Shown here in pieces: positions 11,943-63,314 of a stretch of DNA of 64,000 nt. Numbering within the stretch: the first letter of the stretch is position 1; every line of letters begins with the position of its first letter. The stretch covers positions 4,201,001-4,265,000 of the forward strand of contig CP007053.1 in NCBI GenBank assembly GCA_000242935.3, read 5' to 3'. The stretch is from Opitutaceae bacterium TAV5 (lineage in GTDB: Bacteria; Verrucomicrobiota; Verrucomicrobiia; Opitutales; Opitutaceae). Position numbers and translations under genes: made by a program. Under the pieces are notes generated by a model. That model was not told the DNA's origin, searched no databases, and saw only the letters and a list, made by a program, of their open reading frames with translations.

Positions 11943-12118
11943 AATTTCTAAAAATTCATTTTTGAACAGAAGGAAACAAAGGTAACGAAGGTAAAAACGA
12001 AGAAGACTCTGAATAAAAGTTATTAATTATAATAAAGTTAAACAGGAATGAATGGTAAACGGCCTTGGTTGTTCTCCGTTCTCTTCGTTGCCTTCTGTTC
12101 AATTTTTAGAAGTCCCCT
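11943..12118 (+). repeat. ~175-bp dispersed element R4, copy A
   Basis: An AT-rich element between the response regulator and the first ggt gene. It matches, base for base over most of its length, the reverse complement of 28405-28584. Its ends carry inverted arms (GAACAGAAGG near 11964 and CCTTCTGTTC near 12091) and the middle holds a shared TTAAACAGGAATGA block. It encodes nothing convincing. The size, inverted ends and dispersal fit a MITE-like or REP-like element. Confidence 0.8.
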
Positions 12119-13895: not shown

Positions 13896-14004
13896 CGGGG
13901 GAGTTTGTAATTGGAAGTTGGAAGTTTGTCGTTGATTTCCTGTTTCGCGGGCTGGAGACCAACTTCCAACTACCAACTTCCAATTACAAACTACAAACTC
14001 CCCC
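13896..14004. repeat. Dispersed inverted-repeat element R6, copy 1
   Basis: The element is built of GTTTGTA/TTGGAAGTTGG-type motifs on the left and their reverse complements on the right (CCAACTTCCAATTAC and similar), so it can fold into a long imperfect hairpin. It lies between the convergent ggt and histidine-kinase genes. Close relatives are at 63162-63314 and, with altered motif, 53222-53341. Confidence 0.7.
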
Positions 14005-17804: not shown

Positions 17805-18205
17805 GTTTCCGGTGACGCGACGGACGGGAAAGGGAATCCGTGCCGGCGAAGGCCGGGGTGGATGCGTCGCAACCGGAGGAAGGGCCGAACAAGGGCGAAA
17901 AAATCATTCTGCCCTGTGTGGTCCCCCCGCGTGCGTTGCCGCCATGCCGACGACTCAAAGCATCTGGATTTTCACACAAAGATCGCGAAGACCGCAAAGG
18001 TTTGGTTACCTGGAACTTCGTGGCCTTCGCGATCTTGTAGGAGAACTTTGTGTAAAATAAAAACATCAGAGACGCCGGTACAAACGCGATGAAGGGCTTC
18101 ATGTGTGACGGGATTCTCACGCACCCTCGCGGCCAGCCGGATTAGATCTAACGGGAGAAGCAGGTGCGAAAGGAAAACTGCCAGAGGCCGGAGACCGGGG
18201 AGAAT
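17805..18205. repeat. Non-coding gap with a long palindromic unit at 17969-18058
   Basis: No gene is supported. Nested inverted arms are seen: CACAAAG/CTTTGTG on the outside, and GATCGCGAAG against CTTCGCGATC inside, giving a potential hairpin of about 85 bases. A short downstream stretch (GCGATGAAGGGCTTCATG near 18088) resembles the core of repeat R1. Confidence 0.6.
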
Positions 18206-18314
18206 GGCCACAAAAAACACGAAAATTCTTTCCGCCCGGCGGGGATCTCCCGTGCGCTTATAAGCGCGATGGAGGGTTTCATGCGCGGCGTGTTCTTTTG
18301 TGCTTTTTGTGGCC
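18206..18314 (+). repeat. 109-bp dispersed element R1, copy 1
   Basis: The element starts GGCCACAAAAAACAC and ends with the inverse (GTGCTTTTTGTGGCC), with a central CGCTTATAAGCG palindrome and a GCGATGGAGGG core. Two further copies are at 31494-31602 and 32034-32140. Confidence 0.85.
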
Positions 18315-18370
18315 ATCCGTTTTCTGGTTCCGGCGCAGCCCGCCTGTGATTGTGCCATGAATCCGGATAC

Positions 18371-23965: not shown

Positions 23966-24258
23966 ACTGATGTTACGCGGATCGACCGTAGTCACAGGCC
24001 TCGACTTTTCCTGGCGGAAAAGTGCCTGTGGGACGGCGCGAAGCGCCGCCGGTCTGTGTGGCGCGGGCGTCTCGCCCGCAGACGGCGAAGCCGCCGGATC
24101 GTGTGGCACGGGCTTCCAGCCCGTGAGCGTTGCCTCTCCGCGACGTCCGGAAACAAACCGGCGGCGCTTCGCGTCGTCCACGGGCAAGGATGCCCGTGCC
24201 ACGTCGGAAGCGGGCGAGACGCCCGCGCCACTTCAAGGCCGATCCGCGTGACATCAGT
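23966..24258. repeat. 293-bp composite palindromic element R5 with terminal inverted repeats
   Basis: The outer ends ACTGATGTTACGCGGATC (23966-23983) and its near-perfect complement (24241-24258, 17 of 18) enclose a chain of smaller hairpins such as GCGGGCGTCTCGCCCGC and GGCGCTTCGCGTC. Fragments of the same element recur at 34716-34768, 36472-36665, 37629-37802 and 41783-41906. It carries no gene. Confidence 0.8.
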
Positions 24259-28404: not shown

Positions 28405-28584
28405 AGGTGACTTCCAGAAATTGAACAGAAGGCAACGAAGAGAACGAAGACCAACCAGGGACGTTTACTGTTCATTCCTGTTTAACCTTCTTAAAACAAA
28501 CAACTTCTTGTTCAGGATCTTCTTTGTTTTTACCTTCGTTACCTTTGTTTCCTTCTGTTCAGAAATGAATTTTCAGAACTTCCC
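28405..28584 (-). repeat. ~175-bp dispersed element R4, copy B (inverted)
   Basis: Reverse-complement copy of 11943-12118, upstream of the TatD gene. Both copies share the GAACAGAAGG arms, the GGTAACGAAGGTAAAAAC block and the TTAAACAGGAATGA core, and differ mainly in the AT-rich centre. Confidence 0.8.
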
Positions 28585-30884: not shown

Positions 30885-31494
30885 CGCGCACAAGGTCGCC
30901 GAGATGAACGCGCTCGCCGCCGCCAGCGGGCTGCCGTTTCCGTTAAAAATCTGTTCGGCCCGAGAGTCCGGCGGCATGCCGCCGGTGGTCGAGGACACCG
31001 GCACGTTTGTCGGCAACGCCCGCAAGAAAGCCGTTGCGCTCCGGCAACAACTCGCCGCCGCCGGCCAGCCCGACGCGTGGGTGCTTGCCGACGACAGCGG
31101 CCTCTGCGTGGACGCGCTCGGCGGCGCGCCCGGCGTCGAGAGCGCGTACTACGCCGGCCCGCAGGGCGACAGCGACGCCAACCTGCAAAAACTCGTCGAG
31201 ACTCTGCGCCCGGTCGCCGGCGACCGGGCGGCGCACTACACCTGCGTGCTTCTGCTGCGTGGTCCCGGCGGCCTCGAAAAGATCTTCGAGGCGCATTGTC
31301 ACGGCCGCCTCCTGGTGGAGCCGCGGGGGCAGGGCGGTTTCGGCTACGACCCGCTGTTCGTGCCCGCCGCCGACAACCCCGCCGCCCGCACCTTTGCCGA
31401 ACTCGGCGACGATTTCAAAAACGCCCGCAGCCACCGCGGTCTCGCTTGGGCCAGACTCGTGCAGTGGCTCCGCGAAAACCCGCCGGAGGGATAG
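30859..31494 (+). CDS. rdgB: Non-canonical purine NTP pyrophosphatase (RdgB/HAM1 family)
   Basis: A 211-residue enzyme that removes dITP, dXTP and ITP from the nucleotide pool. Motifs: LHLASGNAHKVAEM at the N-terminus, VEDTGTFVGNARKKAVAL, VLADDSGLCVDALGGAPGVESAYYAG, and GGFGYDPLFVP followed by TFAELGDDFKNARSHRGLA. The start at 30859 lies inside the end of ribD, suggesting translational coupling. Its stop codon is directly abutted by repeat R1 copy 2, with one base shared. Confidence 0.94.
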   Translation: MKLHLASGNAHKVAEMNALAAASGLPFPLKICSARESGGMPPVVEDTGTFVGNARKKAVALRQQLAAAGQPDAWVLADDSGLCVDALGGAPGVESAYYAGPQGDSDANLQKLVETLRPVAGDRAAHYTCVLLLRGPGGLEKIFEAHCHGRLLVEPRGQGGFGYDPLFVPAADNPAARTFAELGDDFKNARSHRGLAWARLVQWLRENPPEG

Positions 31495-31602
31495 CCGCAA
31501 AAAGGCGCCAAAAATCTTTCTGCCCGACGAAAATCCTCCGCGCGCCTATAAGCGCGATGGAGGGTTCCATGCGCGGCGTGTTCTTTTGTGTTTTTTGTGG
31601 CC
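31494..31602 (+). repeat. 109-bp dispersed element R1, copy 2
   Basis: It starts at the last base of the rdgB stop codon (GCCGCAAAA) and ends TTTTTTGTGGCC. It carries the same GCGATGGAGGG core and TATAAGCGCG palindrome half as copies 1 and 3. It lies just upstream of the GxxExxY gene. Confidence 0.85.
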
Positions 31603-31632
31603 ATTGCTTTCTGTCATTTCTCCCAACGAGTC

Positions 31633-32034
31633 ATGAACACAAAATCCCTCAACCAGCTCTGTGATGTTGTCCGCGAGACCAGCTATGCCATCCACCGTTA
31701 TCATCGTAACGGACATGCCGAAAAAATCTACGAGAACGCACTCGTCCATCGTCTCCGGAAGCAAGGGGTTGAGGTAAAACAACAGCATCCTCTGCACGTA
31801 TACGACGAAGATGGAACCCTGCTCGGAGAATTTTTTGCGGATCTGTTTATCGAAAACTGCCTGATCGTGGAACTCAAGGCCGTGCGCAAGGTGATTAATG
31901 AGCATATCGCCCAGCTTCTTGGTTATCTTTGTTCGGGACGGATCGAGACCGGTTTGCTCATCAACTTCGGATCAGCCAAACTCCACGTGAAAAAGTACCT
32001 CATGAGCGACATCGACGCTCTCGAAGAGGAATAG
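31633..32034 (+). CDS. GxxExxY family protein (PDDEXK_3-like)
   Basis: A 133-residue protein that begins at the ATG 31633 (MNTKSLNQLCDVVRETSY). The family signature is GHAEKIYENAL, matching G-x-x-E-x-x-Y. Further landmarks are QHPLHVYDEDG, FFADLFIENCLIVELKAV (the ELK of a PD-(D/E)XK-type nuclease fold) and TGLLINFGSAKL. The biochemical role of the family is unknown. Members are often multi-copy in Verrucomicrobia and Planctomycetes. The gene is bracketed by two direct copies of repeat R1, the second of which begins at the last base of its stop codon, so gene plus repeat may move or duplicate as a unit. Confidence 0.9.
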   Translation: MNTKSLNQLCDVVRETSYAIHRYHRNGHAEKIYENALVHRLRKQGVEVKQQHPLHVYDEDGTLLGEFFADLFIENCLIVELKAVRKVINEHIAQLLGYLCSGRIETGLLINFGSAKLHVKKYLMSDIDALEEE

Positions 32035-32140
32035 CCACAAAAAACACAAAATTTCCATCTGCCCGGCGAGAATCTTCCGCGCGCTTATAAGCGCGATGGA
32101 GGGCTCCATGCGCGGCGTGTTTTTTTGTGTTTTTCGTGGC
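32034..32140 (+). repeat. 107-bp dispersed element R1, copy 3
   Basis: It starts at the last base of the GxxExxY stop codon (GCCACAAAAAACAC) and ends GTGTTTTTCGTGGC, with the central CGCGCTTATAAGCGCG palindrome intact. It sits 55 bp before uvrB. Confidence 0.85.
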
Positions 32141-32194
32141 TATTCTTTCCTTCAGTTGCAGTGCAGCCAGTCTGGCGATTGGGTGATTGATCCG

Positions 32195-36471: not shown

Positions 36472-36665
36472 GGCGCGGGCGTCCCGCCCGCATCCGGCGT
36501 GGCACGGCCATCCTGGCCGTGGACGGCGCGAAGCGCCGCCGGTTTATTTCCGGACGTTGCGGAGAGGCAACGCTCACGGGCAAGATGCCCGTGCCACGTC
36601 GGAGCGGAGAGGCACCCGATGCGGGCGAGACGCCCGCGCCACGACGCTCCGCGTAACATCCGTTA
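36472..36665. repeat. R5 palindromic element, right part, including the right 23-bp direct repeat
   Basis: Bases 36472-36494 duplicate 34746-34768. Beyond them come hairpin units (GGCACGGCCATCCTGGCCGTG, GGGCGAGACGCCCGC) and the end CGCGTAACATC, the same right end as the R5 copies at 23966 and 41783. Confidence 0.8.
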
Positions 36666-37567: not shown

Positions 37568-37877
37568 GCTTCGAGCGCAGCCGCCGGGCGGCGGCGGGGC
37601 AAGTGCGGAAGGCAGGCAGCGAGCAGCGGTGTCCGAAGTGGCGCGGGCGTCCCGCCCGCCGTGGGAGCGGCGGTCTCCAGACCGCTGGACGACGCGCAGT
37701 GTCGCACGGTTCGTATGGTTCGGAGGCGAGGCGCGTTGCGCCTCGTCGCAGCGGCAGGAATGCCGCCGCTCCCACGGCAGGCGAGACGCCTGCACCACCG
37801 GAAAACAAACCGCGGCTGTTTCGGGTGGATTTCCGGGGCGGCGGGGACAGACTCCGGCATTGTCCCCGTTGTTCCCG
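37568..37877. repeat. 310-bp gap filled by R5-type palindromes
   Basis: GTGGCGCGGGCGTCCCGCCC near 37637 and further inverted units run to about 37802. Bases 37748-37772 are identical over 25 bp to 57212-57236 and to 62426-62450 inside sucB. No gene is seen. Confidence 0.75.
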
Positions 37878-61905: not shown

Positions 61906-63162
61906 ATGCCAACTATCGACGTAAAAATCCCTCCCATGGGCGAATCCATCCTGACCGGCGTGCTGGCCAAGTGGCGTGTGGCCGATGGCGACGTTGTCGC
62001 CCGCGACCAGCCGCTCTTCGAGCTCGAGACCGACAAGATCACGTCGGAAGGCATGGCGGAGGCCGCCGGCAAGATCACGCTCAGGACGGCCGAAGGCACC
62101 GAGGTGAAGATCGGCGAAGTGGTCGCCACCATCGACACCGACGTCACCGCCGGCGCGGCTCCGGCCGCGGAACCGGCGCCCGCGCCGTCCGGAGCCAAAG
62201 CCGCCGCGTCCGCGGCTCCCGTTTCTCCGGCCGTGGCCCGGATCGCCGCCGAGACCGGCATCGATCCGGCCACCGTCCCCGGCACCGGCAAGGGCGGGCG
62301 CGTCACCAAGGCCGACCTGCTGGCCGCCGCCGAAGCCGCCGCGTCTTCGCCGAAAGCTGCCGCCGCGCCTCAGCCTCCGCCGCCCGCGGCACCGTCCCCG
62401 GCGCCGGCGCCTGCCTCCGACTCCGGCAGCGGCAGGAATGCCGCCGCTCCTGCAATCCCCGCCGGCCGCCAGACGCGCAAGAAACTCTCGCCGCTGCGCA
62501 AGCGCCTCGCCGAGCGCCTCGTCCAGGCGCAGCACCAGGCGGCCATGCTCACCACGTTCAACGAAGTGGACATGAGCGCCGTCATGGAGCTTCGCAAAAA
62601 ATACCAGGACGATTTTGTGAAGAAAAACGGCATCAAGCTCGGCTTCATGTCCTTTTTCACGAAGGCGGTCGTGCATGCCCTCCAGGCCGTGCCCGGCATC
62701 AACGCGCGGATCGAGGGCGACGAGATCGTCCAGAACAGCTATTACGATGTGGGCGTGGCCGTCTCGACCGACAAGGGCCTGATGGTTCCGGTCATCCGCG
62801 ATTGCGACACCGTCAGCATGGCCGGCATCGAAAAACAGCTCGGCGACCTCGCGAAAAAAGCGCGCGACGGAAAGATCACGCTTCCCGATCTCGAAGGCGG
62901 CGTCTTCACGATCACCAATGGCGGCATTTTCGGCTCGATGCTCTCGACGCCGATTCTCAACGCCCCGCAAAGCGCCATCCTCGGCCTGCACGCGATCAAC
63001 GAGCGCCCCGTCGCCATCAACGGCCAGGTGGTCATCCGCCCGATGATGTACCTCGCGCTCAGCTACGATCACCGCCTCGTGGACGGCAAGGAAGCCGTCA
63101 CCTTCCTCGTCAAGGTCAAGCAGGCCATCGAAGACCCGACCCGGCTTCTGCTGAATCTGTAA
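61906..63162 (+). CDS. sucB: 2-oxoglutarate dehydrogenase E2 (dihydrolipoyl succinyltransferase)
   Basis: A 418-residue protein. The lipoyl domain (residues 1-80) has the attachment lysine Lys44 in [11 protein letters not shown] Pro/Ala linker leads to the E1/E3-binding domain ([33 protein letters not shown], residues about 105-142). A second linker precedes the catalytic domain ([33 protein letters not shown]) with the active-site [11 protein letters not shown] (His389). The second linker contains a 25-bp block (62426-62450, residues 174-182, GSGRNAAAP) identical to intergenic repeats at 37748 and 57212. No such short repeat is normal in this gene. Confidence 0.96.
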
Positions 63163-63314
63163 CTGGAAGTTTGTAGTTGGAAGTTGGTAATCAGAAACCG
63201 GTGAAGGCGTGTTGCCGGGCCTGTCTCCTGTTTACCGCTCATTTCCCTGCCCTGCCCCGTCCGTCGCCAACCACCAACTACAAACTACAAATTTCAAACT
63301 ACCAACTTCAAACC
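63162..63314. repeat. R6 inverted-repeat element between sucB and lpdA
   Basis: The left arm is AACTGGAAGTTTGTAGTTGG-type sequence starting at the last base of the sucB stop. The right arm is its complement (CCAACTACAAACTAC, then ACTACCAACTTC). It ends six bases before the lpdA start, close enough to affect its ribosome-binding region. Confidence 0.7.

Follow-up and report, generated by a model that had tools for sequence, protein, structure and literature searches.

Closest described systems

The RAYT (TnpA-REP) genes and their REPINs are the closest described counterparts of the unit reported here, and parts of two accounts present RAYTs as single-copy genes that coexist, each with its own repeat, with co-evolution of gene and repeat proposed (PMC3116915, PMC8266576). 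As portrayed in those parts, the likeness to GxxExxY units is that a nuclease gene is flanked by palindromic repeats and accompanied by many dispersed inverted doublets (PMC3116915, PMC8266576). The RAYT enzyme is an HUH/Y1 tyrosine transposase, whereas the GxxExxY protein is of the PD-(D/E)xK type according to a structural model, and RAYT repeats are one short REP hairpin, whereas the ends of GxxExxY units are tandem units repeated every 8–10 bp. In the window (the whole 64,000-nucleotide stretch of DNA analysed here) the product of the flanked gene matches TIGR04256 and PF13366 and is modelled with a PD-(D/E)xK fold, and is not an HUH/Y1 transposase. By analogy, our best reading is that the GxxExxY unit would work like RAYT/REPIN with an unrelated enzyme and without the HUH transposase that defines RAYT.

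Other systems share single elements of this design. DDE insertion sequences and MITEs also have terminal inverted repeats and short non-autonomous derivatives, but the arms of GxxExxY units are internally iterated, the two family matches of the window protein include no transposase, and no target-site duplication was found above a shuffled-flank control at 118 GxxExxY loci, where the ends are fuzzy and repeats of 3 bp or longer were counted. PD-(D/E)xK nucleases of the Cas4/RecB type are among the best fold matches of the window protein, but that protein has 133 aa, lacks a convincing solved relative by sequence and sits in a flanked unit. The 23S rRNA IVS, like a GxxExxY unit, is a small unit (about 430 bp) with one small ORF between inverted repeats; its S23 protein, a four-helix bundle, is however unrelated to GxxExxY, its arm units are 7 bp long, and whereas its ORF lies inside a 23S rRNA gene, the GxxExxY units inspected closely lie between protein genes, that of the window in the gap between rdgB and uvrB. 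The window, pheS-pheT, hemL and fabD-fabG units all lie between genes, and not in an intron or intein as homing endonuclease genes do. We did not find a GxxExxY gene between inverted arms described in the open-access literature, which was the scope of the search, subscription papers and preprints lying outside it. In the other bacteria examined, most of the related genes likewise have inverted repeats on both sides whose sequence goes with the enzyme subfamily, and this pattern suggests a type of tiny mobile DNA not described before.

The rdgB-uvrB locus and the R1 repeat

The GxxExxY gene of the window has a copy of R1, an imperfect palindrome of about 109 bp, in direct orientation on each side, and the whole arrangement lies between genes that we take to be rdgB and uvrB; these names, like nadE-like, hemL, pheS, pheT and HAD phosphatase, are our own from reading translations and not database assignments.

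31633..32034, + strand: GxxExxY gene (TIGR04256/PF13366), 133 aa, predicted PD-(D/E)xK nuclease from a model
31490..31609, + strand: left R1 copy, imperfect palindrome, whose end supplies the rdgB stop codon
32029..32148, + strand: right R1 copy, imperfect palindrome with arms at 32029-32051 and 32123-32145; the GxxExxY stop codon falls in its end
18202..18321, + strand: third R1 copy of the window, bare, with no adjoining GxxExxY gene

An earlier sequence-only reading of this stretch had described two R1 copies of about 109 bp bracketing the gene, at 31494-31602 and 32034-32140, and a third near 18206; the copies listed above enclose the first two and the third is the bare one. It was also correct that each flanking copy begins at the last base of a TAG stop codon (31492-31494 for rdgB and 32032-32034 for the GxxExxY gene) and that the copies have inverted ends and a common core, the core being TATAAGCGCG and the palindromic end reading (A)TAGCCAC or (A)TGGCCAC. 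Because the end has this sequence, both stop codons fall within R1. The arms of the right copy are GAATAGCCACAAAAAACACAAAA and TTTTGTGTTTTTCGTGGCTATTC, and the left and right copies are 79% and 85% identical, respectively, to the reference copy at 18202-18321. The protein scores 109.5 bits against TIGR04256 (cut-off 35) and 97.8 bits against PF13366 (cut-off 22), placing it in both families, and its matches are confined to these two entries of NCBIfam and Pfam.

The source genome comprises 7,417,673 bases, of which the chromosome accounts for 7,317,842, and contains 77 R1 core sites at no more than two mismatches in its 7.42 Mb, compared with 5 for a control. By our arithmetic, the chance of R1 lying within 250 bp on both sides of one given gene is about 1e-5; given these two values, the repeat-gene-repeat layout is not attributable to chance. 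The proposal that this layout reflects mobilisation therefore stands in its general form, since the layout is no coincidence and points to mobilisation, and fails in its detail, since R1 is not generally linked to GxxExxY genes: R1 lies beside one of the seven GxxExxY loci in the genome, which is the scattering that the same reading had named as counting against R1 taken literally. Duplication of the gene by recombination between R1 copies, which had also been proposed, is unsupported, because the remaining six loci have no R1.

R1 as a GxxExxY-specific repeat is ruled out on the same count. In the fetched stretch of about 1.5 kb upstream of uvrB, rdgB is absent from all 20 of the other uvrB loci compared.

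Predicted structure of the window protein

HUH and PD-(D/E)xK are textbook motif names, and modelling places the window protein in the PD-(D/E)xK nuclease superfamily as a predicted nuclease. An AlphaFold2 model made with 47 sequences has a pLDDT of 93.6 and the PD-(D/E)xK fold, and the best Foldseek matches include AdnA (9np6; E 3.8e-4) and SSO0001 (4ic1; E 5.9e-4), the latter with Z 9.7 and an rmsd of 5.5 over 108 residues by VIA. The kept residues are G27, E30, Y33, D70, E80, K82, Q94, Y98 and N111, of which D70, E80 and K82 are invariant in alignment A3, with E80 at 90% or more in alignment A1. By sequence no convincing relative of solved structure was found, the sole candidate being T7 endonuclease I at an E value of 2.

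Inverted arms at GxxExxY loci

PF13366 has nine matches in the source genome, spread over seven loci; the frame is open in six of these, one of which has two domains, and is interrupted by a frameshift or stop in the seventh. Inverted or palindromic repeats next to the genes emerged when the loci were aligned to themselves. All seven have inverted repeats in their flanks, mostly unlike one another in sequence, with a flank score of at least 38, the score being that of the strongest inverted match between the 250 bp on one side of a gene and the 250 bp on the other. It is this design, inverted repeats in the flanks, that is general, and not the R1 sequence.

The same holds in the class to which the source organism belongs, in which 58 of 113 genomes have a GxxExxY gene. 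A score of 36 or more was reached by 95 of the 116 class loci and by 1 of 303 control ORFs from the same contigs (medians 44 vs 18), and a score of 28 or more by 107/116 and 5/303, respectively. In a set drawn from many phyla the corresponding values are 49/79 GxxExxY loci vs 2/87 control ORFs at 36, and 65/79 vs 3/87 at 28; one of the two control ORFs at 36 or above is itself a second GxxExxY gene (L277). On the threshold of 36, then, 95/116 and 49/79 loci have arms that qualify as terminal inverted repeats. Genes of a same-size family, those with a PIN domain, gave 0/29 at 28 or more. The one class-level control ORF that is also situated between such palindromes (L093) has a translation that in our reading resembles a 3'-5' exonuclease.

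The many-phyla set is the best 80 of 586 GxxExxY loci from one scan of genome contigs, and spans Cyanobacteria, Chloroflexi, Planctomycetota, Acidobacteria, several classes of Proteobacteria, Bacteroidota, two Methanothrix-named MAGs and others; of the two MAG loci one has arms (L257, score 47) and one does not (L247, score 17). Eighty extra class loci came from the top of their list, not strictly by rank, with at least one entry (G093:C1:1990800) passed over and lower entries not taken. L007 was merged into L003 and L009 into L008 (tandem pair, frameshifted copy), and L242 (short flank), L153 and L170 (contig ends) and L366 were left out. Scores fall below 36 at 21/116 class loci and 30/79 many-phyla loci, and below 24 at five of the 116 (L047, L067, L071, L112 and L147) and 11 of the 79.

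Eight plasmid records were matched by each of three GxxExxY queries, and a single query matched zero phage records. Among five plasmid loci inspected, L290 scores 45, L304 36 and L292 34, while the one in Treponema has only an 11-bp pair and that in Prevotella no clear arms.

Bare palindromes and a proposed mobile unit

The arms of the GxxExxY unit located between pheS and pheT in the source genome (L004) belong to a dialect represented by 158 arms genome-wide, against 0 for a control, with a single gene. These amount to about 75 palindromes at most. Pairing was counted in 100 of the 158 places (46 plus, 54 minus): among the 46 plus-strand arms, an inverted partner lies no more than 400 bp away for 34, at a distance of 121-122 bp for 18 of them, and the 34 include one arm that forms the left flank of the gene-bearing unit. 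The bare palindrome of this dialect, about 140 bp long, is thus present in many copies, including two in the window, to which a third, less certain palindrome may be added.

11962..12102, unstranded: bare palindrome of the L004 dialect, TTGAACAGAAGG..AACnAAG (that of the pheS-pheT unit), from a palindrome scan
28422..28561, unstranded: second bare palindrome of the L004 dialect, from the palindrome scan
17974..18054, unstranded: possible further bare GxxExxY-type palindrome (CACAAAGATCGCGAAGACCGCAAAG), seen by eye and absent from the palindrome scan output

The layout known from RAYT/REPIN, in which one single-copy gene is flanked by a repeat that is also dispersed as inverted doublets, is found for R1 and for the L004 dialect, the two counted among the seven loci. 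Across loci more widely, arms of the same dialect occur at 9.5 per Mb around other loci of the same genome, compared with 0.86 in other genomes, and a further arm of the same dialect lies within the fetched stretch at only 15 of 75 loci.

Palindromes of a different dispersed family, recognisable by GCGGGCGTCCCGCCCGC-type ends, are seen in the window at 24023-24186, 36472-36640 and 37643-37793, and also upstream of uvrB in G113 (L181).

The explanation that we favor, with a probability of roughly 0.6, is a mobile unit encoding a nuclease that recognises the iterated ends of that unit, the bare palindromes being its satellites. Such a unit would be about 470 bp long, a single gene together with its ends; the encoded protein would be a small PD-(D/E)xK nuclease (GxxExxY), and each end would be an arm of tandem units, most often three, spaced every 8-10 bp, with the two arms mutually inverted. 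The nuclease would bind to units in its dialect and cleave the DNA at the arms or close by, and cleavage would let the gene-bearing unit, together with bare palindromes that have the same ends, be copied or moved into intergenic gaps. In the source genome the L004 dialect has its 158 arms and one gene, and the window gene lies between two R1 copies, with some 77 R1 core sites in all. Recognition of the arms by the nuclease, its role as mobiliser and its chemistry are all things that we infer. Counting against this reading are the lack of target-site duplication above the control, the loci that score below 36, the small share of loci (15 of 75) with a further arm of the same dialect, the differing arms of the similar proteins at L289 and L280, and the single R1-protein case of the window.

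Filled and empty sites

Insertion of GxxExxY units is supported by comparison of sites. Two units of the source genome, L002 and L008, are 83% identical across 472 bp and the identity ends at their inverted repeats. Between pheS and pheT a GxxExxY gene is present in G000, G113, G093 and G118 and absent from G069, G058, G121 and G042, the gap in G058 and G042 containing, by eye, a bare palindrome. The hemL site is filled in G000, G064, G081 and G118, empty in G121 and G058, and occupied in G124 by another gene, glyoxalase-like in our reading. Upstream of uvrB, G114 has a HAD-type phosphatase gene followed by a GxxExxY gene, while in G124, G125 and G081 the phosphatase gene precedes uvrB with nothing of the GxxExxY type between. 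A GxxExxY gene separates fabD from fabG in Sphingomonas parapaucimobilis; in S. paeninsulae a fabG-like sequence begins 32 bases past fabD, and in Rhizobium indigoferae the fabD-fabG gap is 30 bases. In the genus of G060 no empty site was found, the two flanks of the query never occurring together among the matches listed.

GxxExxY genes are situated just upstream of uvrB in three genera (G000; G114, L183; and G058, L185), with differing arms and orientation (minus strand in G058) and with 33-35% protein identity to the window gene. It is possible that the region upstream of uvrB is an insertion hot spot.

Some of these patterns need not reflect movement, and the pheS-pheT and hemL slots that several genera have in common could be the outcome of old inheritance and loss. 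They also bear on homing, a reading that overlaps with the one we favor, in which the nuclease would cut allelic empty palindromes or sites and repair would copy the unit in, so that units stay put and do not transpose. Slots that are filled in several genera and elsewhere empty or holding a bare palindrome fit it, as do the absence of target-site duplication, the scarcity of plasmid matches and the lack of phage matches; however, one dialect is present at different sites, at hemL (L002), at another locus of the same genome (L008) and elsewhere (L086), and the dispersed bare copies require movement to new sites. We consider homing by itself unlikely.

Arm grammar and its match to the protein

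The arms are composed of short tandem units such as CACAGAG, and the lag at which an arm best matches itself is 8, 9 or 10 in 137 of 164 loci. Counting units by the shorthand CRCNDA, for C[AG]C[ACGT][GAT]A, 106 of the 164 loci have three per arm, 22 have two, 10 have four and the other 26 have one or none. By eye, many arms read, from the outside in, ACCACAGAG a CACAGAG a CACAGAG, and the units of other subfamilies include CACGAAA, CACTAATG, ACAGGAT, TCAGGAAA, CGCGCAGAG and TTGAACAGAAGG. From outer end to outer end the median length is 469 bp (142 units).

A comparison of arms and proteins, in which 164 of 196 loci were kept (those with a score below 30 or with stops being left out), reveals a correlation. 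The Mantel r between protein distance and arm distance is 0.373, where the highest of 2000 permutations gave 0.096. Two arms from one genome are no closer (mean distance 0.790) than two from different genomes (0.775), and for the nearest protein relative in another genome the arm distance is 0.500, compared with 0.776 for random loci. Arm dialect thus tracks protein subfamily across phyla, and not genome, and common descent of a linked unit could account for part of this match. For 25 cross-genome pairs with at least 73% amino-acid identity, there are 0.69-0.93 synonymous differences per site, at or near saturation, and 0.06-0.22 nonsynonymous ones; judged from these codon differences, GxxExxY proteins are under strong purifying selection. 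In 21 of the 25 pairs the arms nevertheless align at a score of 30 or more, as they do in 29 of 396 random pairs, and since they still align where synonymous sites are near saturation, the arms have been conserved and have stayed matched to the protein. Part of this conservation could come from gene conversion between dispersed copies, and there is a counter-case, L289 and L280, with proteins 74% identical and different arms.

These relationships count against the view that the palindromes are independent miniature elements of another transposase and that GxxExxY is a passenger, inserted or caught between copies. That view draws on the excess of bare copies over gene-bearing ones, on the composite-like look of the window, where two whole R1 copies surround the gene, and on the palindrome-flanked exonuclease-like control ORF at L093; but the arm dialect goes with the protein subfamily across phyla and not with the genome, the arms remain alike near synonymous saturation, and such arms are rare at other genes (1/303 control ORFs and 0/29 PIN genes). 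We regard it as distinctly unlikely.

The two arms of one unit differ at 5.3% of unit-core positions (111/2103) and at 29% of linker positions (205/707), where a regular expression applied to one arm defined the core and the ratio may, by our estimate, be biased by up to about two-fold. Such conservation of core over linker is a better match to recognition of the units than to simple base-pairing. A regulatory role for the arms, as operators for autoregulation or as stem-loops in the RNA that shield or terminate the transcript of a gene with a cellular function, would suit the strong purifying selection, the position of several units in operon gaps (pheS-pheT and fabD-fabG) and the ability of inverted arms to pair in RNA, but is improbable given that pairing alone does not need the core-linker difference, that gene-free bare palindromes are numerous and that related species differ in filled and empty sites.

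The fit of R1 itself to this grammar is loose: each arm has only two CACAAAA units, R1 contains a further, inner palindrome, and no other protein of the 164-locus set is more than 39% identical to the window protein. For these reasons the pairing of R1 with its protein is a single case, which counts against the mobile, self-recognising unit that we propose. Two R1 copies about 10 kb apart (L017 and L032) have outer flanks that by eye look mutually inverted, and several others have a longer flank in common (GCGGATGCGTTCCGGATTCAAACCGGGAT), so that R1 seems to be nested within a larger repeat. Upstream of uvrB in G132, a member of the same order, the sequence TAGCCACAAAAGGCACAAAAAACACAAAA consists of three R1-dialect units. 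This locus (L197) has about 150 bases of arm-like pieces in mixed dialects (CACAAAA, CACGAAG, CACGGAT and CGCAGAT), and the window protein finds no GxxExxY match in the stretch fetched there.

S23 units as a parallel class

Inverted arms also flank members of the 23S-IVS protein family (PF05635) from the class of the source organism, in 26/29 at a score of 28 or more and in 16/29 at 36 or more, and their grammar is a different one. The best lag is 7 or 14 in 30 of 34 loci (those of 37 with a score of at least 28), indicating heptamer units, and two or more CRCNDA units are found in 1/34 S23 loci, compared with 134/164 for GxxExxY arms. In the part of a paper on the Coxiella IVS that bears on this, tandem heptamers are reported to precede the S23 start codon and the IVS is called selfish (PMC4990558), and as far as that part goes the Coxiella heptamers fit the heptamer arms of S23 units (PMC4990558).

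Related cyanobacterial plasmids of about 97% identity differ in an S23 unit, which is present in those of Trichormus and Scytonema and absent from those of Nostoc linckia and Microchaete. Comparison of filled (L330 and L337) and empty (L335 and L336) sites in a plasmid conjugation cluster shows a 428-base insertion with, in our reading, a 4-5-bp duplication of TAAT or GTAAT; L338 looks like the remnant of an S23 unit, and at a second plasmid site (L333, L339 and L340) the junction is not clean.

Most S23/four-helix-bundle genes examined are situated between inverted arms of heptamer units (L040 and L041 of the source genome; L151-L179 and L327-L334). On cyanobacterial plasmids, one S23 unit lies between cas6 and cas4 (L328) and another between cas10 and a cmr3-family gene (L331). 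At 13902-13992 the window has a palindrome built from S23-like units (AGTTTGTAATTGGAAGTTGGAAGTTTG); a relative in inverted orientation lies at 63158-63188.

Implications

We offer tentatively, and at slightly less than even odds, a broader proposal in which GxxExxY and S23 proteins would be the mobilisers of two unrelated classes of miniature palindromic DNA, both very widespread and told apart by the grammar of their ends: about three units at 8-10-bp intervals in the one and heptamers in the other. The GxxExxY subfamilies and their dialects would then constitute a natural protein-DNA recognition code, the unexplained CACAGAGACACAGAG- and CAGTTGTCAGTTGT-type short palindromes of environmental genomes would be satellites, and the 23S rRNA IVS would be S23 units that landed in rRNA genes. 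The idea is open to bench test with one protein and short DNA, and because subfamily and dialect match across phyla, their pairs form a ready data set on how a small PD-(D/E)xK protein may read DNA. If the proposal is true, a large protein family known chiefly for the motif in its name would gain a role, the short palindromes of this class in environmental genomes would gain an origin, and the RAYT/REPIN arrangement, one nuclease gene with many tiny palindromes, would have arisen a second time, in this case around an unrelated enzyme.
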